From contig CANPGB010000017.1 of NCBI GenBank assembly GCA_947573485.1, positions 1 to 64,000 of the forward strand: 64,000 bases of DNA, written 5' to 3'. Positions within the stretch are counted from its first letter, which is position 1. Every line of letters starts with the position of its first letter. Position numbers and translations under genes: made by a program. Shown piece after piece: positions 24,213 through 39,285 of this stretch. The notes below the pieces were generated by a model. The model had not been told where the DNA came from, did not search any database, and saw only the letters and a list, made by a program, of their open reading frames with translations. This DNA comes from an uncultured Porphyromonadaceae bacterium. Lineage in GTDB: Bacteria > Bacteroidota > Bacteroidia > Bacteroidales > Muribaculaceae.

Positions 24213-25031
24213 TCAGCGCGCGTTCTTCACGCTTCCGCCCGTCTCGCTTTGGGAGGTGAGGGTTTCAACGCGACACTTCACGCTGCCTCCGGTCTCGGCA
24301 GTGGCTTTGCCTGATTTTGCGGCGACGCCCTCGGCTTTGACTGAGCCTGCCGTCTCGGCGTCGAAGCGCACCATATCGGCTTTACCGGCTGTGAAAACTA
24401 CCGAAGAAGCCGTCTCGGCATCGGCGCCGAGGGTAGCTGTTTCGATGTAAGCGACTTTTATAGAGGAGGCTGTTTCAGAGGAGAATGAGGCTTTATCGGA
24501 TACGAAGATGCTGTCGGCATTAATCTTTGCGGCAGTCTCGGCAGAGAAGTCGCAAGAGCCCTCGACAGTGAGGCGGTCGAAGCGGATAGAGGCGGCTGTC
24601 TCGGCGTCGTAGGAAGCGCGCCCTTTGACGGTCATCGGACCCGAAACGGTAACCGAAGAGGCTGTCTCGGCGTCGATTTCGGAGAGGTAAGGCACGGTAA
24701 CGCGGAGTGTGCATTTGAGGCGGTCGCGCGAGCGGAACTGGAGGTCGTCGTCGAAGCGCACTTTAAGCTCGCCATTAGAGGTGGTGACCTTGATGCGGTT
24801 GATGAGGTTGTCGGGAGCCTCGAGCACGGCAATACCCGTGGCGGGGCCTACGGTTACGTGCACGTCGACTATCGACGACGAGAGCTCGTTGAAGCTTCCG
24901 ACGTTAAACTGACGGGTAGTGAGATTGGTGCTGGGTTCTACCTTTTTGTTGCCTGCATACGCGGCAATGCTCACCACCGATGCTGCGATACAGATAGCGA
25001 GAAGTCCGAGGGGAAGAAAAAATTTTTTCAT
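24213..25031 (-). CDS. Head-GIN (DUF2807) putative adhesin with eight ET-S repeats
   Basis: 272 residues. Signal peptide or anchor FFLPLGLLAICIAASVVSIAAYA. From residue ~45, the chain follows the head-GIN/DUF2807 beta-helix pattern (DVHVTVGPATGIAVLEAPDNLINRIKV, GELKVRFDD, LRVTVPYLSEIDAETASS). The motif ET(A/G)xS/K-[VI] recurs eight times at residues 122, 144, 165, 186, 206, 226, 246 and 263, a spacing of 20-22 that shortens to 17, so each repeat is probably one turn of a beta-helix. It is exported to the periplasm or surface. Function of the family is unproven; it is often next to transport or sensing genes. Confidence 0.75.
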   Translation of the reverse strand: MKKFFLPLGLLAICIAASVVSIAAYAGNKKVEPSTNLTTRQFNVGSFNELSSSIVDVHVTVGPATGIAVLEAPDNLINRIKVTTSNGELKVRFDDDLQFRSRDRLKCTLRVTVPYLSEIDAETASSVTVSGPMTVKGRASYDAETAASIRFDRLTVEGSCDFSAETAAKINADSIFVSDKASFSSETASSIKVAYIETATLGADAETASSVVFTAGKADMVRFDAETAGSVKAEGVAAKSGKATAETGGSVKCRVETLTSQSETGGSVKNAR

Positions 25032-25089
25032 ATTCTTATAGATTGTGATTTTGGATTATGCCTATAAGACGCAGCGACAACACGAAATG

Positions 25090-28000
25090 TTACACAACCT
25101 TTGAAAATTTTTTCACCACATAGCGGTAAAGCAAGGGTACGAGGTAGATATTCAGCGCAGTAGACGTTACAAGACCACCGAGAATAACGAGTGCCATAGG
25201 CGCCTGAATCTCGTTGCCGGGGGCGTCGGCCTTCACCGCGAGCGGCACAAGAGCCAGTGCCGAGGTGAGGGCCGTCATTATAATAGGCAGCAGACGGTCG
25301 GCCGAGCCGCGGGCTATGCGGTCGGGCAGAGGCACACCTGCGGCAGCAAGGTCGTTGTAGTGGCTTACCAGGAGCATGCCGTTGCGCGTGCTTATGCCCA
25401 TGAGCGATATGAAGCCGATGATTGCCGGTATGTTGAGGTCGCAGCCTGTGGCGGCAAGCATTATCACGCCACCTATCATAGCCAAGGGCATGTTCACAAG
25501 AATCACAAGCGACTGCGGCAGGCTGCGGAACTCGCCGTAGAGCAGCATTATAATAATGAGGAGCGCGCCGAGAGAGGCGAGGGCGAGGCGGCGCGAGGCG
25601 TTGCGCTGGTTCTCGAACTGGCCGCCGTACACAGCATGGTAGCCTTCGGGGAAGTCGATGTCGGCGTCGATGCGCGAGCGTATGTCGTCGACGGTGCTCA
25701 CAAGGTCGCGGCCCTCGACGTTGGCGCTTATTATGAGGCGACGCTGCACGTTCTCGCGGTTTACGGCATTGGGACCCGAGGTAATGCTTATATCAGCTAT
25801 ATCTCCCAGGGGCACCATACCCTCGACAGTGGCTACGGGGAGGACGGCGACATCGGCAATCGCGGAGCGGTGATCTTCATCGAGAATCACGGTCACGGGG
25901 TAAGCCACACCGCGGTCGTAGACCTCGCCCACCTCCGTGCCGCCAAGGGCTGTTGCAACGGTAGCGCCGAAGTCGGCGGGAGTCACGCCATAGCGGGCGA
26001 GCAACTCGCGGCGGGGCTCGATAAGGAGCTGCGGGCGCTCGGTCTGCTGCTCTATGTTTACGTCTACAGCGCCGGGCACCTCCTCTACTATCGCCTTTAT
26101 CTGCTTGCCGATAGCGAAGAGCTTGTTAAGGTCAGAGCCGAAAACCTTGATAGCTATCTGGCTTTGCGTGCCCGAGAGCATGGCGTCGATGCGGTGCGAT
26201 ATAGGCTGACCAATCTCCACCACGGCACCGGGGAGCTCGCCGAGGCGATGTCGGAGTTCGGCGCTCACCTCGGCGCGGGTGCGGTCGGTGAGCTTGTAGG
26301 GCGCCTCTATCTCGGAGACGTTTACACCGAGCGAGTGCTCGTCGAGCTCGGCGCGACCTGTCTTGCGGGCAACGGTCACCACTTCGGGCGTCTCCATTAT
26401 TATACGCTCGGCTTCGCGCCCTATGCGGTCGCTCTCGTCGAGAGATATGCCCGGCAAGGTGCTCACGTTGATAGTAAACGAGCCCTCGTTGAAGGGGGGC
26501 AGGAAGCCGCGCCCGAGGGTGAAGAAGAGCCCGAGAGCTACCATGAAGAGCGCACAAGTGGCAAGTATCAGTGCCCGGCCATGCGCCATGGCAAATGCGA
26601 GGCTGCGCGAATAGGCGGCCTTGAGCGCACGGGTAAGGCGCGGCTCGCGTGAGAGGCGCTCATCCTGAGCCTTGGTGCCCAGGAGCCAGCTGCTGAGCAC
26701 GGGCGTAACCGTAAGGGCTACTATAGTTGAGGCTATCAACGCCACGATGAAAGCCACACCGAGGGGCTTGAGCATGCGGCCTTCCATGCCGTCGAGGAAG
26801 AAGAGAGGGAGGAAAGCCGCCGCCACTATAAGGGTGGAGTTGAAAATTGGCATACGCACCTCGGCGGAGGCGTGGAAAACGACGTCGACGGTGCTGCGCC
26901 GCTCGTCGGGCGGAAGGGCGCGGTTCTCGCGCAGACGGCGGTATACGTTCTCGACGTCAACAATGGCATCGTCCACGAGGCAGCCTATGGCTATGGCAAT
27001 ACCGCCGAGGCTCATGGTGTTGACAGTGTAACCCATGGCATGCAGCAGGAGCACGGTAACGATAATGGAGAGGGGCAGCGCCGTGACGGAGATGAGCGTG
27101 GTGCGCACGTTCATCAGGAATACAAAGAGGATTATGATGACGAAGAAGGCACCTTCGAGGAGCGAGCTCTGCAGGTTGCCAATGGCGCCGTCGATAAAAT
27201 CGGCCTGACGGAAAATATTGCGCGAGACCTTGATGTCGGCAGGCAGAGCAGCCTCGATTTGGTCGAGCTCGGCGTCGATAGCAGCGGTTAGGCGTTTGGT
27301 GTCGGCGCCGGGCTGCTTTGTTACGGTGACGAGCACGGCGGGGTCGCCCTCGACAGAGGCTGTGCCTATGCGTGGCAGGCGTCCGCCCTCCTCTACCGTG
27401 GCGATGTCGGCGAGAGTCACCACGCCCGAGGCATCGGAGCGCACCACGGCCATGCCGAGCTTGCCGATGTCTGATGTATTGATGCGGGTCTTTACAATAT
27501 ATTCATTACCAAAGTCGTAGAGAGCCGCACCGCCGGTATTGTTATTGAAACCTTCGGTGGCTGCGAGCACTTCGGGTATGCTTATGCCGTAGGCCTGCAT
27601 GGCGCCGGGGTGCAGTTTGATCTGATACTCGGGGGCGTCGCCGCCTATCACTGAAATCTGCGATACGCCACCGAGAGCGAGCAGACGGGTGCGGAGGTCG
27701 CGCTCGGCAATGCGGCGCAGTTCGAGCATAGAGGTGCTGTCGGAGCGCAGGCCTATAATCATCATCTCGCCGAGAATCGATGACTGCGGCCCCATTACAG
27801 GTTTCTCGACACCTGCGGGCAGGCGGTCGGCGGCTGCATCGAGGCGCTCGCCCACTATCTGTCGCGCGGTGTAGATGTTGGTACCCCAGTCGAACTCAAC
27901 CCATACAACCGAGAATCCGGCGGTAGAGCTCGAGCGCACACGGCGCACGCCCGTAGAGCCGTTGACAGCGGTCTCTATAGGATAGCTCACCACCTGCTCG

Positions 28001-34509: not shown

Positions 34510-35681
34510 AAATACTGGAGATAAACACCGTGGCCTTCGGCAGCTCCACAGGGGCGTATATGCGCTCTGTGGCCGATGCCTGCATGCGCCGGGGCTGCGA
34601 GGTGGCAATCGCCAAAGGGCGCCGCGCCGATGCACCCGGTGTGCGCAACATAGCCACGGGCACGCGCCTCACGCCTCTGTTGCACGGCGCCGCCACCCGC
34701 CTTTTCGATATGCACGGCCTTGTGGGCGCCCGCGCCACACGTGGCTTTATAAAGGCTGCGGAGGCTTTCGGCCCCGACGTGATACACCTGCACAACATCC
34801 ACGGCTACTATCTCCACTACCCCACCCTCTTCGAGTGGCTCCGCAGCTACGGCGCCCCGGTGTTCTGGACGCTCCACGACGGCTGGGCGCTCACCGGCCA
34901 CTGCGCCTTCCCCGAGGGTGCCGGGGGACTCTGCCCGCGCCTTGCCCATGGCTGCGGCAAGTGCCCCCAACTCAGCCAATACCCTGCTGCGCTCATCGAC
35001 CGCAGCGCCGCCAACTACCGCCGCAAAGCCGAGGTGTTCACTTCGGTGCCCTCGCTTACGCTGCTCCCCGTGAGCCACTGGCTCGACGGGCTTGTTGCAC
35101 GCTCTCCTTTGGCTCCGCTGCGGCGCGAGGTGGTGCATATCGACATCGACATTGAGCTATACAAGCCCACAGGCACCGTGGCCGATAAGCCGCGCGTGTT
35201 AGGCGTGGCCGCCAATTGGGAAGACCGCAAGGGGCTTGATTTCTTTTCCAAACTACGTGCCACGCTGCCCGATGATGTAGAAATACGCATAGCAGGACGG
35301 CCACCGCGCCGTCGCCCCGAGGGACTGAATTTCCTCGGCGTACTCAGTCGTGAGGAGCTTATTGCCGAATACTCGCAGGCCTCGGTATTTGTTAATCCGA
35401 CCCTTGCCGAGAATCTGTGCCTGGTAAACCGCGAGGCCCTCGCCTGCGGCTGCCCCGTGGCAAGCCGCGACAGCGGAGCCGCCACTGAAGGCCTCTCAGG
35501 CCCCGCCGTGGCTGCCGCCGCGAGCGAGGCAGAGCTTATCGACGCCGTTCATAGCTTCCTGAACGGAAAAAGCCCGCGCGCCGAAGCACGCGGACTTGCC
35601 GAGAGTCTCTTTAGCGGAGAGCCAAACATGCACCGCCTACTCACTCTTTTTGGAGTGCCTTGCGGTTGCGGCTCTCTATAA
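34506..35681 (+). CDS. GT4-family glycosyltransferase with Cys-rich insert
   Basis: 391 residues from the ATG at 34506, which overlaps the preceding stop. The N-terminus KILEINTVAFGSSTGAYMRSVADACMRRG and VIHLHNIHGYYLHYPTLFEWL are typical of WcaL/colanic-acid-type transferases. The insert HCAFPEGAGGLCPRLAHGCGKCPQL has four cysteines spaced as in related transferases, suited to zinc or iron. The donor-binding E-x7-E site is FVNPTLAENLCLVNREALACGCPV. It would add a sugar to a surface polysaccharide. The last 41 bases overlap the 3' end of the convergent portal gene. Confidence 0.8.
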   Translation: MKILEINTVAFGSSTGAYMRSVADACMRRGCEVAIAKGRRADAPGVRNIATGTRLTPLLHGAATRLFDMHGLVGARATRGFIKAAEAFGPDVIHLHNIHGYYLHYPTLFEWLRSYGAPVFWTLHDGWALTGHCAFPEGAGGLCPRLAHGCGKCPQLSQYPAALIDRSAANYRRKAEVFTSVPSLTLLPVSHWLDGLVARSPLAPLRREVVHIDIDIELYKPTGTVADKPRVLGVAANWEDRKGLDFFSKLRATLPDDVEIRIAGRPPRRRPEGLNFLGVLSREELIAEYSQASVFVNPTLAENLCLVNREALACGCPVASRDSGAATEGLSGPAVAAAASEAELIDAVHSFLNGKSPRAEARGLAESLFSGEPNMHRLLTLFGVPCGCGSL

Positions 35682-36945
35682 AAGATGTAAATGAATCGAA
35701 GATGTCGGCCAAGGCTATGGTGGCGTTGCGCACCTGCGTGTCGAACATCTCCACTCCTCTTGCAGTGCCCGAAGAGCGGCCGAGCAAGGCATCGCCGACA
35801 CCCGAAATATCCTCGAAGAGTTTCATCTGCAGCTGCAGGAGCTGATAGGCGCCTGTCGAGGCCGTGTTTGTCATAACCTGCTGCGGCAGGTGCTGACCGT
35901 TGCCGGAGATTGGAATCACGCCGTCGGACTGCGCCCAGCGCGCCGTAATCTCGTCCCACGAGAAATTGTCAACCATTTGGTCGGCGGGGAAAAGGAGCAC
36001 ACCCTTGGCCGAGGTTGTCATAATCTTGTCGATCATCACAATCAGGCGGTTGATGTACCGCTGCTGGTCTATCACATCTTCGACAAAAGAGTGTACCTCG
36101 CCGTCGGTAAGGGGGTAGAACTTGACTGCGAAAGGGTGTGAGCGGTGTGCGTAGGGAGAATCGTACTCGCGGAGCACGGTACCGTCGGGAGCAATGAAGC
36201 GGCAATGCCACACAAAGTCCATATCGGCGGTGTCGCCGTCGTCGCGGCAGTCGAAAGTCCATACCTCGATAACCCTGCAACGCCCCTCGCGCCCGGGAGC
36301 GAAGAAATCATCGCTGTCGTCGGCAGCCCCGAGTTCACGGGCGAGACCGAAAGCGGCTTCGTCGGCTATGCCCGAATATATGTGGCGAAATTCGGCGGCA
36401 CGCTCGCGGCTGCCGCAGGCAAAGCGGTTTACGAGTTCGGGAAAGGTGAAGTCGTGGAGCATGCCTATGAGGTCGATGTCGAAGCCACGCGGGTCGCTGA
36501 AGGCGTTGACAAAAAACTTTCGGGGGTCAACATTATCGACCCACACACCGCAACCGCCGTGGCGCCGCTCCTCGACAATGCGCTGTATGGCGCAGCCCGA
36601 AATCAGGAATTCCTCGAGCAGACGGCTGTCGAGCTCGGCCAGGCTGTTGAGCCTCGCCAGAGGCGCGACGTCAGCCCCCGTATAAAGCCCTGCCTCCGCC
36701 GCCTGCGTGCGGTAGCGCCCGACCACGGTCTTCACGAGCTGGCGTATGAGATTGTTCGACAGAGGTTTGGAGCCGCTTTCCTCGAGCATGCGGTCTTCAC
36801 GCATATAACGCCCGTGGCTGTCGCGCACAATATCGCACCACTGGTCGCCATAAGTATAGTTCTTATAGCGTTTACGGCGTGAGCGCAGCCGCGCGGCGCC
36901 GTTCCAGGCCTTATAGGCGGCCTCAAGTACAGATTTCGCTTTCAT
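35641..36945 (-). CDS. Phage-type portal protein, short form
   Basis: 434 residues, no signal peptide. The layout follows P22/Bacteroides-phage portals: an N-terminal QWCDIVRDSHGRYMREDR, NNLIRQLVKTVVGRYRTQAAEAGLY, a wing domain with WVDNVDPRKFFVNAFSDPRGFDIDLIGM, VIEVWTFD, then FVEDVIDQQRYINRLIVMIDKIMTTSAKGVLLFP and GVGDALLGRSSGTARGVEMFDTQVRNATIALADIFDSF. Portals form the 12-subunit DNA gate at one capsid vertex. At 434 residues it lacks the long C-terminal barrel of P22. It overlaps the upstream gene by 4 bases and is the last gene of a capsid cassette with no terminase nearby. Confidence 0.72.
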   Translation of the reverse strand: MKAKSVLEAAYKAWNGAARLRSRRKRYKNYTYGDQWCDIVRDSHGRYMREDRMLEESGSKPLSNNLIRQLVKTVVGRYRTQAAEAGLYTGADVAPLARLNSLAELDSRLLEEFLISGCAIQRIVEERRHGGCGVWVDNVDPRKFFVNAFSDPRGFDIDLIGMLHDFTFPELVNRFACGSRERAAEFRHIYSGIADEAAFGLARELGAADDSDDFFAPGREGRCRVIEVWTFDCRDDGDTADMDFVWHCRFIAPDGTVLREYDSPYAHRSHPFAVKFYPLTDGEVHSFVEDVIDQQRYINRLIVMIDKIMTTSAKGVLLFPADQMVDNFSWDEITARWAQSDGVIPISGNGQHLPQQVMTNTASTGAYQLLQLQMKLFEDISGVGDALLGRSSGTARGVEMFDTQVRNATIALADIFDSFTSFIESRNRKALQKE

Positions 36946-37508
36946 AATTCAGAGAGATTTACAGGAAGTGCGCGCTCGTCGAGCGTATAATAATCTTCGC
37001 CGGGGTCTATGGCCGCCGTCACTGTCACCGCCTGCGGAGCAGCCCCTGCGGGCCATGCCATTACCTGTGGTGCCGCGCCCGAGGTATTACCGGGGAGGGC
37101 TATCGCCACCGGACGCTCCACCGTTGCTGCGGTAAAAGGGTTGAGCTGACACGAGAGCACACGGTCATATTCAGAGGCAGGAAGCACTTCGACGGCCTTG
37201 CACCAGCCGCGCAGCTTTACATCGAACACCCGTCGGCACATGGCAGGCATATTGAGAAGCGCGCCTCCGGCCTCGCCCTCGCTGACGGCGCTCACCGAAA
37301 CCATGGCCGAGATATTGTCGGCGGCAACCAGTTCGCGCGGCCCGGTGTCGAGCAGGTCGAGATACCACTTGCGCAGCCGCAGCTCAAGCATGGCATCGGC
37401 GTCGATGCCCTCGGTGAGCTCTATCGAGCAGTCGGCGCGCAGGGGCTCAAGGCCGCCGGCAGTGCGGCAGCGCTTGAGCATCTGAGCTTTGGAGAGTGTT
37501 ATTTTCAT
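36942..37508 (-). CDS. Unknown small protein of the capsid cassette
   Basis: 188 residues, no signal peptide. The N-terminal ~60 residues are helical (LSKAQMLKRCRTAGG, DADAMLELRLRKWYLDLLDTGP); the rest has beta character with DYYTLDERALPVNLSEL at the end. It overlaps both the capsid gene (4 bases) and the portal gene (4 bases), so its product is made together with them. Position between capsid and portal suggests a head-tail connector or adaptor, but no motif was recognised and this remains inference. Confidence 0.6.
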   Translation of the reverse strand: MKITLSKAQMLKRCRTAGGLEPLRADCSIELTEGIDADAMLELRLRKWYLDLLDTGPRELVAADNISAMVSVSAVSEGEAGGALLNMPAMCRRVFDVKLRGWCKAVEVLPASEYDRVLSCQLNPFTAATVERPVAIALPGNTSGAAPQVMAWPAGAAPQAVTVTAAIDPGEDYYTLDERALPVNLSEL

Positions 37509-38800
37509 CTGTTGGCAGTGTTACCTATCACGCGCATGTGAGCCTTGGGATAGCGTAGCACGAGGCACGAGGCTTCGGTGAGCACCACAGCGTCGGTGTT
37601 GCGCTGGCCCGAGGCGCGGAGGTCGAGTTTCTCGGCCTGGAAGGGCACATGCACGTATTTGGTCATGTAATTGGGGTCGAGGATGAAGCCGTCGGCAGAG
37701 TGGCCGCACTGGTCAAAGACCTCGGAGTGCAGCAGGTAGAGCGTGCCGAAGTTCGACACCACTTCCTTGAACTCTATGCCCCACTTCACGCGGGTCTCGG
37801 CAGAGGCCACCACCTTGGTATACTGGAGCTTGGTGAGCGCCTCCATGAGCTTTGTGCCTGCAATGAGAATCTTGCGTTTTGAGCCGTTGTTGCCGGTAAA
37901 GGCTTGGCTGCAGAGGGTCACGAGGTCGTTCTCGGTGAGATTGTCGAGGTCGAGCTCAGCCGAGCGGGGAGCCTGCCCCCATATGCCGCCGGTGAAATAT
38001 ACGTTCTCGTTCTTCACGGGGTCGTAGAGACGGGTGCGCTTGCCGAAGATAAAGTTTTTCTCCATACCCAGGCGCATGTCGATTATTGCGGCCTCTTCCT
38101 GGTCGGAGAAAGTCCAGTCGGCTTCCTTGCCGGCGATTTTGGCGAGCGTGCTCTGCTCTACCTGCATCTTGAAAATCTGGCAGTTATTCGAGGCCTTGCG
38201 GGGCAGAGCCGAGAATTGAGCCGTCTGCACGTCGAGCTCCGTTGCCGCGCGGCCCATGCGCACCAGGCGCGTACCCTTATCCATTTTGGGGAGGGTGATT
38301 ACGGTGCCCGTCATGCCCTCGGAAGGAATACCGTTGAGGGGCACCACCTCGATACCGCCGTCGGCAGGACGCGAGAGTACGTAAAGCACGAGAGGGGCGG
38401 CGACTTCGCCCGCGGCGGCATGGCCGTTGACATCAGGCACGAGAACGGTCTCCGAGGGGTCGAAGATATTGTCGGCCTCGGTGCGGATAACGTAGCTGGT
38501 CACGCCTTCGCCGCGGTCAACGCCTCCCGAGCCGTTAAAGTCGGCCGAGAGGGCGGTCTCGGTGAGCTTGGTATCCACAGAGTAGTACTCTACGGTCATG
38601 GCGTCGGCGCGGCGGCTCATGGCGCAGCGGCTGAGCTGGTCGATAGGGGTCGACATGGGGCGCACCTTGACGATGCGGCTGTCGATAGAGTTGCGGAGCA
38701 GTCCGGGGCTGCCGGCGGCGATATTTTCGGTGGTGGCGGGTGCGCCGCTGATGTGGGTGCCTCCGGCGGTGCCGGGAACGAGATTCTGTTTGTCGCTCAT
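37505..38800 (-). CDS. Phage-type major capsid protein
   Basis: 431 residues, no signal peptide. The N-terminus NIAAGSPGLLRNSIDSRIVKVRPMSTPIDQLSR and the core QIFKMQVEQSTLAKIAGKEADWTFSDQEEAAIIDMRLGMEKNFIFGKRTRLYD, YFTGGIWGQAP, KILIAGTKLMEALTKL and FGTLYLLHSEVFDQCGHSADGFILDPNYMTKYVHVPF match HK97-fold coat proteins of the SU10/DUF5309 kind seen in Bacteroides prophages. It would assemble into a shell. In this locus it follows a scaffold-like gene and precedes an unknown gene and a portal, in the reverse of the usual phage order. No protease domain was seen. Confidence 0.68.
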   Translation of the reverse strand: MSDKQNLVPGTAGGTHISGAPATTENIAAGSPGLLRNSIDSRIVKVRPMSTPIDQLSRCAMSRRADAMTVEYYSVDTKLTETALSADFNGSGGVDRGEGVTSYVIRTEADNIFDPSETVLVPDVNGHAAAGEVAAPLVLYVLSRPADGGIEVVPLNGIPSEGMTGTVITLPKMDKGTRLVRMGRAATELDVQTAQFSALPRKASNNCQIFKMQVEQSTLAKIAGKEADWTFSDQEEAAIIDMRLGMEKNFIFGKRTRLYDPVKNENVYFTGGIWGQAPRSAELDLDNLTENDLVTLCSQAFTGNNGSKRKILIAGTKLMEALTKLQYTKVVASAETRVKWGIEFKEVVSNFGTLYLLHSEVFDQCGHSADGFILDPNYMTKYVHVPFQAEKLDLRASGQRNTDAVVLTEASCLVLRYPKAHMRVIGNTANR

Positions 38801-38844
38801 GATATTGGAGTTATAAGTGAAAAGTGAAGAATTAAAACTGAAAT

Positions 38845-39201
38845 TTAGAAATTGAAATCATCGTCTTGCCAGAAGTCAGGGCGAAGATTGGTGAGGAACG
38901 AGGGGCAGCTGTCGGCGGGAGCCTCGGGAGCCGGAGTCGCAGGCGACTGGAACATGGCCACTGGAGGCGCTGTCGGTTCGGGCGAGGCAGGCTCGGGAGC
39001 AGGCGTTTCAGGGGCAGGCTCGGCAGGAGGCTCGGCGGCGGGCAGAAGGGTGCTTATAAGCTCGGCAGGGTTGCCGCCGCGGGCTATCTCGGCAAGCACG
39101 TGGGCACACTCGGGGTTGGCGCTAATGGCGCGGAGGAGCTCGAGGTCGGCGCTGCCGTCGGTCTCAGGGGTGCATTCCGGGGGTGTTGTTTCTTTTTCCA
39201 T
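38845..39201 (-). CDS. Acidic Pro/Ala-rich scaffold-like protein
   Basis: 118 residues with low-complexity Pro, Ala and Glu (PAAEPPAEPAPETPAPEPASP), one short helix before it (DLELLRAISANPECAHVLAEIARGG), and a compact conserved-looking tail SCPSFLTNLRPDFWQDDDFNF. Small acidic proteins just upstream of a capsid gene are often scaffolds. It is the first gene of the cassette, 22 bases after a predicted start point and 44 bases before the capsid gene. A cargo or capsid-targeting role for the aromatic tail is also possible. Confidence 0.55.
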   Translation of the reverse strand: MEKETTPPECTPETDGSADLELLRAISANPECAHVLAEIARGGNPAELISTLLPAAEPPAEPAPETPAPEPASPEPTAPPVAMFQSPATPAPEAPADSCPSFLTNLRPDFWQDDDFNF

Positions 39202-39229: not shown

Positions 39230-39237
39230 CAAAGTTA
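39230..39237 (-). promoter_or_regulatory. -7 box of the capsid/portal cassette
   Basis: On the minus strand TAACTTTG, a full match to the host Bacteroidetes -7 consensus and 29 bases before the ATG at 39201. No clear -33 box was found at the expected distance (GC-rich there). Confidence 0.55.
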
Positions 39238-39266: not shown

Positions 39267-39285
39267 TTTCCCGACGGGCGGGAAA
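39267..39285. other. Perfect 7-bp hairpin in the divergent spacer upstream of the capsid cassette
   Basis: TTTCCCG (39267-39273) pairs with CGGGAAA (39279-39285) around ACGGG. It lies about 30 bases upstream of the cassette's -7 box and about 58 before the channel gene start. Possible operator. A 12-base palindrome GCGCCCGGGCGC follows at 39303-39314. Confidence 0.4.

Follow-up and report, generated by a model that had tools for sequence, protein, structure and literature searches.

What does a set of phage head genes do among ordinary host genes? This question is raised by a 64,000-nt stretch of DNA from an uncultured Porphyromonadaceae bacterium of the Muribaculaceae (assembly GCA_947573485.1, contig CANPGB010000017.1, positions 1 to 64,000; hereafter the window), in which four minus-strand genes encode a scaffold-like protein of 118 aa, a major capsid protein (MCP), a 188-aa protein and a portal protein. 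A reading made from the window's sequence only had described them as a stand-alone cassette, possibly a domesticated shell or a gene transfer agent remnant, with a decayed prophage as the plain alternative. We find that they form one operon of a larger, dispersed phage-derived set. With a probability of roughly three in four, the window contains the head operon of a particle that the host has domesticated from a P22-like, probably short-tailed phage. Its genes are spread over at least three chromosomal operons, and it would represent a gene transfer agent of Bacteroidales that is ancient and inherited mainly in the vertical line. In the following, G000 denotes the genome of the window, other G numbers denote other genomes, C, L and f numbers stand for contigs, loci and families, and g1 is the window's own genus.

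G000 carries three such operons on three contigs: the cassette, an operon of the large terminase (TerL) with an 823-aa protein, and a lysis operon that includes two short genes, C1 and C3. TerL (G000:C3:33395-34984) overlaps the upstream 823-aa gene by 4 bases and is, in a search with a prophage TerL as query, the sole and single-copy TerL of this genome. The same query detected dispersed TerLs (37-49% identity, fragments included) in 37 of 49 genus genomes, and prophage-type TerLs (58-100%) in eight, two of which also have the dispersed type. In the PDB, the dispersed TerL profile has matches to T4 gp17 and to the nuclease domain of a terminase. What we take, by our own motif assignment, to be the Walker A, Walker B and acidic nuclease positions is conserved in 34-35 of the 35 dispersed TerLs, one Walker A glycine in 30 of 35.

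The 823-aa gene is found in 38/49 genus genomes and adjoins TerL in all of the first 20 TerL loci retrieved, of which two are truncated at contig ends. The protein has no useful relative in the PDB and no Pfam family. Because weak homologues occur in a prophage of G183 (1.4e-8) and, with that prophage protein as query, in the three Bacteroides phages BKO1-TP3, BF1-TP2 and BS-TP4 (23-25%), it is phage-derived and probably belongs to the virion. The G183 homologue directly precedes a long portal in a prophage-like region (G183:C32, L334), and the dispersed MCP and TerL of the same genome lie on other contigs. Separately, G034 has a second 823-aa gene and a TerL fragment on another contig (G034:C21 and C24; L246, L247), which suggests a duplicated, decaying TerL operon.

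C1 and C3 follow the portal gene in many species; in phage BKO1-TP3, the C1 counterpart lies near TerL and that of C3 near the endolysin. On contig C42 of G000 they are preceded by an amidase gene and then a DUF6808 gene. The amidase matches Amidase_3 (1.4e-24) and a PHROG endolysin (8.7e-35); NCBIfam returned generic amidases only, below cut-off. Among ten neighbours of the TerL and lysis operons, Pfam assigned host-type families to six (cyclomaltodextrinase, YfhO, serpin, DUF3943, tRNA pseudouridine synthase, arginine decarboxylase) and none to four. No integrase family was present among the 18 scanned neighbours of the three operons (eight of the cassette, ten of the other two), and replication families were equally absent from the scanned neighbours. 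At least one dispersed gene occurs in 44/49 genus genomes when the MCP, portal, TerL and 823-aa searches are combined.

The three operons also share a promoter-proximal sequence. A TTTCCCG..CGGGAAA-type dyad, imperfect before the lysis operon, starts 46-47 bp before the −7 box of each operon in G000; the box of the cassette, TAACTTTG, bears out the earlier claim of a host-type box at the first gene. Two G021 operons keep the same dyad-to-box distance; in the cassette promoter of G021 the dyad is present, with no standard box at that place. In a descriptive count, TTCCCGNNNNNSGGGAA has one exact match in 2.88 Mb, at the cassette, and the TerL and lysis operons are among its one-mismatch sites (40 strand-hits versus 37 for a reversed control pattern). 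The plain ungapped promoter score of G000, 11, is reached by 17 of 39 host controls, so that the case for a shared operator in this genome relies on the dyad together with its spacing and its rarity in the genome.

Across 25 genomes, the regions upstream of the MCP and of the 823-aa gene score a mean of 18.0 within and 12.1 between genomes (0/20000 permutations), and the shared-dyad score is 9.76 within and 8.80 between genomes (0/20000 permutations). In a set-wise comparison, the SCAF promoters strongly resemble those of the 823-aa gene (X835; 0/5000 permutations, 12 genomes); SCAF versus END (1013/5000, six genomes) and X835 versus END (378/5000, 11 genomes) are weak as sets. The shared stretch varies with lineage; G018, for instance, has a GGAC/GTCC dyad and G064 GGTC/GACC.

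These features suggest how such a particle might be made. A dimeric regulator would bind this dyad, some 47 bp ahead of the −7 box, and switch the three operons together; the shared sequence and spacing are observed, the regulator, and activation rather than repression, are inferred. Judged by homology, scaffold and MCP would build a prohead around a shortened portal ring with the 188-aa protein as adaptor. TerL, its ATPase and nuclease motifs kept, would dock on the portal and fill heads with pieces of the host chromosome; packaging of host DNA is proposed because the genes are scattered among host genes and the scanned neighbours include no integrase or replication family. The fast-evolving 823-aa protein may complete the tail or contact the recipient, and the amidase/DUF6808 pair would lyse the producer cell.

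The same gene content would be needed by a domesticated killing particle, which, with host DNA in its heads and a short tail, would kill relatives and deliver no genes to them. Such a particle is known: PBSX packages host DNA, as the proposed particle would, from clustered genes. PBSX of Bacillus subtilis works as a tailocin, without DNA injection, and for FpGTA of Faecalibacterium the choice between gene transfer and killing is likewise left open (PMC12946183, section 10). The 823-aa protein evolves fast (closest-pair omega 0.22-0.27), which would suit a protein that recognises targets. Tail sheath, tube and fibre genes were not identified beside the operons, no genome-wide search for them having been made. 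We regard a killing particle as the main rival of a gene transfer agent, and as unlikely.

A stand-alone shell, be it a nanocompartment, a DNA-sequestering particle or an anti-phage decoy, is a good deal less probable. The cassette by itself is self-contained and conserved, and its shortened portal might poison the assembly of related prophages. Its four open reading frames are intact, and their sizes and the two 4-base overlaps are exactly as first described (Table 1). The identities of capsid (Pfam SU10_MCP, 4.7e-50) and portal (Pfam P22_portal, 2.1e-17; PHROG portal, 2.9e-36) also held and can be regarded as secure from these profiles. The 188-aa gene is homologous to phage gene phrog_22135, which sits shortly downstream of the phage MCP; its profile matches in phages BKO1-TP3 and BF1-TP2 and in prophages, and it has no useful PDB relative. 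Neither it nor the 118-aa gene belongs to a Pfam family. Among 57 sequences scanned, the 118-aa gene has 25 profile matches, the window included, several of them weak (~1e-3). Its counterparts in sister genera match a phage-scaffold profile and the window gene itself does not, so that the first description as scaffold-like applies to the window gene only transitively, through these relatives.

An encapsulin-type nanocompartment consists of a shell gene plus a cargo gene, without a packaging motor. Here, a portal gene adjoins the capsid gene, the terminase and 823-aa genes are co-conserved with the cassette and share promoter sequence with it, and PADLOC defence models matched none of the seven proteins scanned. 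A stand-alone shell was dropped in view of the unlinked TerL, 823-aa gene and lysis operon in the same genome. The evidence also favours a gene transfer agent over the remnant of one: terminase, 823-aa protein and lysis operon are kept elsewhere, and the three operons have a promoter-proximal dyad in common.

The cassette is no intact prophage either, in which head, packaging, lysis and integration genes would be contiguous; host genes surround it, and TerL and the lysis genes lie on other contigs. Pfam classified seven of its eight neighbours as host-type (NAGLU, beta-lactamase-type, glycosyltransferase, Ion_trans_2, DUF1573, OEP, ABC) and one as without family, and profiles of TerL, C1, C3, endolysin, DUF6808 and the 823-aa protein found nothing further within the 64-kb window. 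The reported lack of terminase and lysis genes between host-type flanks is thus correct locally and fails at the scale of the genome, where a single-copy TerL lies elsewhere.

Table 1. Features of the head cassette in the window, and related dyads on other contigs of the same genome
Feature	Position	Strand	Basis
Gene 1, 118 aa, probable shortened scaffold	38845..39201	-	Pro/Ala-rich, acidic C-terminus
Major capsid protein (MCP), 431 aa, SU10_MCP family	37505..38800	-	Pfam profile
188-aa protein, probable head-tail adaptor	36942..37508	-	Phage-gene homology; function inferred from position
Portal protein, 434 aa, P22-type, C-terminally shortened	35641..36945	-	Pfam and PHROG profiles
TAACTTTG, promoter −7-type box of cassette	39230..39237	-	Sequence match
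Dyad TTCCCG-N5-CGGGAA, probable operator	39268..39284	.	Sole exact genome match of TTCCCGNNNNNSGGGAA
Related imperfect dyad before TerL operon	G000:C3:37724-37740		
Related imperfect dyad before lysis operon	G000:C42:7148-7164		

Conservation within the genus bears on whether the genes are merely the scattered remains of one or more decayed prophages. A first MCP search, covering 37 of the 49 genomes used in later searches, found cassette-type MCPs (49-100% identity) in 28, distant copies only (22-24%) in four and none in five. The portal search matched 43/49 genomes, 38 of them with the cassette type; G006, G013, G015, G036 and G069 have portals of the prophage type only. In G017 the portal lies on a separate contig, and all 32 genus loci that reach MCP, 188-aa gene and portal keep this order on one strand. 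Cassette portals stop 2-23 residues past the shared model, and those of phages and prophages extend 29-165 residues further, except for one fragment (G069, second contig). Prophage-like regions with homologues in some genus genomes belong to a different clade with longer portals, which speaks against the decayed prophage of the sequence-only reading. In trees, the dispersed genus MCPs, portals and TerLs each split exactly from phage and prophage copies (support 0.997, 1.0 and 1.0), if G057 (for MCP) and G015 (for portal) are counted among the phage and prophage copies.

In line with purifying selection, approximate closest-pair omega values (NG86, finite synonymous divergence) are as follows: MCP, 0.09-0.21; portal, 0.14-0.28; TerL, 0.07-0.25; 188-aa gene, 0.16-0.39; 823-aa gene, 0.22-0.27; and, in comparison, rpoB, 0.005-0.03. 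The dispersed genes evolve much faster than rpoB. The unlinked genes have correlated histories, with distance correlations of r 0.49 for MCP-TerL, 0.43 for portal-TerL, 0.63 for MCP-823 aa and 0.74 for portal-823 aa, and of 0.43-0.77 overall (0/2000 permutations each). Sequences shorter than 60% of the median were excluded from trees and correlations, as were two partial TerLs and G019b, a duplicate contig copy; the correlations also exclude the five prophage-type-only genomes and G057. The carbon cost of dispersed MCP, portal and TerL is lower than that of phage homologues, a comparison in which base composition is uncontrolled and the phage set comes partly from other hosts.

Decay is seen in one genome, G031; the cassette alone would look like a remnant, and its flanks change between species. 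Set against this are the constant gene order, the omega range of 0.07-0.39, the exact separation from prophages, the correlated histories of unlinked genes and a conserved fumarase neighbour in other families (below). A simple prophage remnant was dropped on the grounds of selection, trees and order-wide recurrence; scattered prophage remains are already contradicted and highly improbable. Domestication, as first proposed, is supported by intact recurrence in the genus and in other families, by purifying selection and by separation from prophages; the shell and decoy uses are not, and a gene transfer agent is favoured.

To look beyond the genus, an MCP profile was run on a draw of 393 genomes of the order. 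It matched 33, strongly (≥547 bits) in 31 and more weakly in G055 and G359; the strong matches come from five genera of the window's own family and from families f22, f28, f60, f68, f88 and f109. A TerL profile matched 29 of 33 chosen genomes, missing G031, G011, G033 and G361. The presence of these MCP and TerL lineages in six further families of the order points to an old set. In the wide trees, from which a second G055 TerL row was left out, the dispersed MCPs (64, support 0.917) and TerLs (63, support 0.951) are each monophyletic. Both trees recover families f1, f28, f68, f88 and f109 as monophyletic; f22 is monophyletic for TerL only, and f60 and genus g1 for neither protein. MCP and TerL distances correlate with r 0.84 across 28 genomes outside the genus (0/2000 permutations).

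In 11 of the 12 loci fetched from f28, f60, f68, f88 and f109, a divergent fumarase gene (Pfam) lies no more than ~370 bases from scaffold or MCP, and in f22 a divergent aminopeptidase P-type gene takes the fumarase position in all four dispersed loci. Within the genus, cassette flanks vary between species, and a DUF1573 neighbour upstream is common to the window and several relatives. A mobile cassette was considered in view of the differing flanks; given the shared DUF1573 and fumarase neighbours, old loci that were reshuffled are a better fit than recent movement. A plasmid search gave one distant MCP relative (23.7%).

In the 13 genomes measured for the distance of MCP and TerL on a shared contig, the two are separated by 31-955 kb in nine (955 kb in G283) and by 1.6-14 kb in G187, G018, G136 and G028. 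On the closed contig of G340, TerL adjoins a methylase-like gene; the 31 kb that separate it from MCP include phosphofructokinase, RelA/SpoT and TatD genes. The shortest distance, 1.6 kb, occurs in a sister genus (G187:C13, L317), where 823 aa-TerL and scaffold-MCP-188 aa-portal-C1-C3 lie together, a layout that may be near the ancestral one.

A phage satellite, like the phage-inducible chromosomal islands (PICI) or P4, that borrows helper functions would account for head genes without adjoining tail genes and for related prophage-like regions in some genomes, and is as improbable as prophage remains, given the set's own TerL and lysis genes, the lack of an integrase family among the 18 neighbours scanned, the family-level grouping in both trees and a dispersed TerL as the only one found in G000 with the prophage query.

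How does the set compare with described gene transfer agents? PMC9662315 gives a six-point definition, whose first point we split in two to obtain seven rows. The set agrees with two of them, and its gene content suggests that it works like a gene transfer agent: homology of portal, MCP and TerL points to proteins from a tailed-phage ancestor, and the genes are fully endogenised at several loci, being three operons on three contigs, each with host-type neighbours. That the set is too large for one particle is expected from its dispersal over tens to hundreds of kb. The definition further describes phage-like particles that mostly enclose random host DNA and deliver it to other cells, as the predicted particle would, and a mostly vertical inheritance in step with the host, on which the MCP-TerL and rpoB correlations, the family groupings in the trees and the fumarase neighbour bear.

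In the gene transfer agent RcGTA, most structural genes are clustered and the particle has a long tail. It differs from the present set also in its host, Alphaproteobacteria; like the set, RcGTA/Rhodogtaviriformidae is described as phage-derived, located at several loci and biased to cheaper amino acids in its structural proteins, and further as vertically inherited, as the set probably is (PMC9662315). By the description there, BhGTA (VSH-1) of Brachyspira, a spirochaete, likewise has a genome that is likely dispersed over multiple loci, and its TerL forms a cluster of its own (PMC9662315). A further one is FpGTA, in which portal, MCP, scaffold and TerL form one operon and tail and lysis genes a second, ~125 kb away in one strain, and for which particles, proteomics and ~9-kb DNA are reported (PMC12946183). 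Split operons, near-ubiquity in a gut genus and podovirus-like character are common to both; FpGTA belongs to Bacillota and has two operons and demonstrated particles, the present set to another phylum, with at least three operons known from sequence. A literature search, judged by title or abstract start and with preprints and most subscription papers outside its scope, found no published gene transfer agent of Bacteroidota. The text available of PMC9662315 leaves Bacteroidetes/Bacteroidota unmentioned, and that of PMC7947584 names Bacteroidetes as the host phylum of Salinibacter viruses.

We consider it reasonably probable that the set is an independently domesticated gene transfer agent, the first in Bacteroidota, which existed before several Bacteroidales families split; that its genes then drifted apart and stayed one regulon through operators re-invented lineage by lineage; and that it would provide gut bacteria with an ancient, built-in route of DNA exchange. 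If so, the few gene transfer agents listed so far would be joined by one from a further phylum, probably of independent origin. Bacteroidales are cited as having among the highest gene-exchange rates in the gut (PMC12946183, section 10). The scattered genes with a shared, shifting operator would show a virus dissolved into a host regulon and still held by selection, a system that methods seeking clustered phage genes would be expected to miss.

Several observations weigh against a gene transfer agent. Particles, packaged DNA and transfer are predictions from the genes, and no tail-fibre, injection or maturation-protease gene was identified (sheath, tube and fibre genes were looked for beside the operons, with no genome-wide search). 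Five of 49 genus genomes lack any dispersed gene and have the prophage type only, 360 of 393 order genomes have no MCP match, and the searches in other families covered MCP and TerL. C1, C3 and DUF6808 occur in 37, 34 and 21 of 49 genus genomes with prophage copies included in all counts, and the lysis pair adjoins C1-C3 in 6 of 20 C1-C3 loci fetched. The pattern TTCCCGNNNNNSGGGAA was read off the three promoters themselves. Clear operator similarity is confined to about a third of genomes: a genome's own pair beats all 24 others in 9 of 25, and two of these nine are doubtful and may be other repeats (G016, of low complexity and with a higher host control, and G035, at −298). All-pair uncorrected median pN/pS is 0.48 for MCP, 0.52 for portal, 0.47 for TerL, 0.74 for the 188-aa and 0.82 for the 823-aa gene against 0.13 for rpoB, values for which synonymous sites are saturated and G057 (MCP, 188 aa) and G015 (portal) are included. 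Distances of the dispersed genes follow those of rpoB less closely (r 0.35-0.61, reached in up to 20 of 2000 permutations). In G031 the set has decayed, with a portal split in two frames, an 823-aa gene cut to 469 aa and no TerL. On G031:C11 (L066, L193, L258), C1, C3, endolysin and DUF6808 have their usual length.

The Bacteroides phages BKO1-TP3, BF1-TP2 and BS-TP4 resemble the dispersed set in carrying homologues of MCP, portal and TerL, the first two also of the 188-aa protein and C1, and differ as 64-68 kb phage genomes in separate clades; annotated portals of two fetched phages measure 656 and 622 aa versus 434 aa in the window. The deposited 'tail spike protein' of BKO1-TP3 (L098, 9841-11955) and BF1-TP2 (L099, 8008-10035), also present in BS-TP4 and H11, is homologous to TerL, with 37-38% identity to that of G000, and the label probably misnames a large terminase. 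In G025:C7:75281-75481 (L083), a partial second copy of the MCP N-terminus lies just upstream of the intact MCP. Finally, BKO1-TP3 (L098) has an annotated reverse transcriptase at 24519-26009 beside a very large protein, an arrangement that resembles diversity-generating retroelements.

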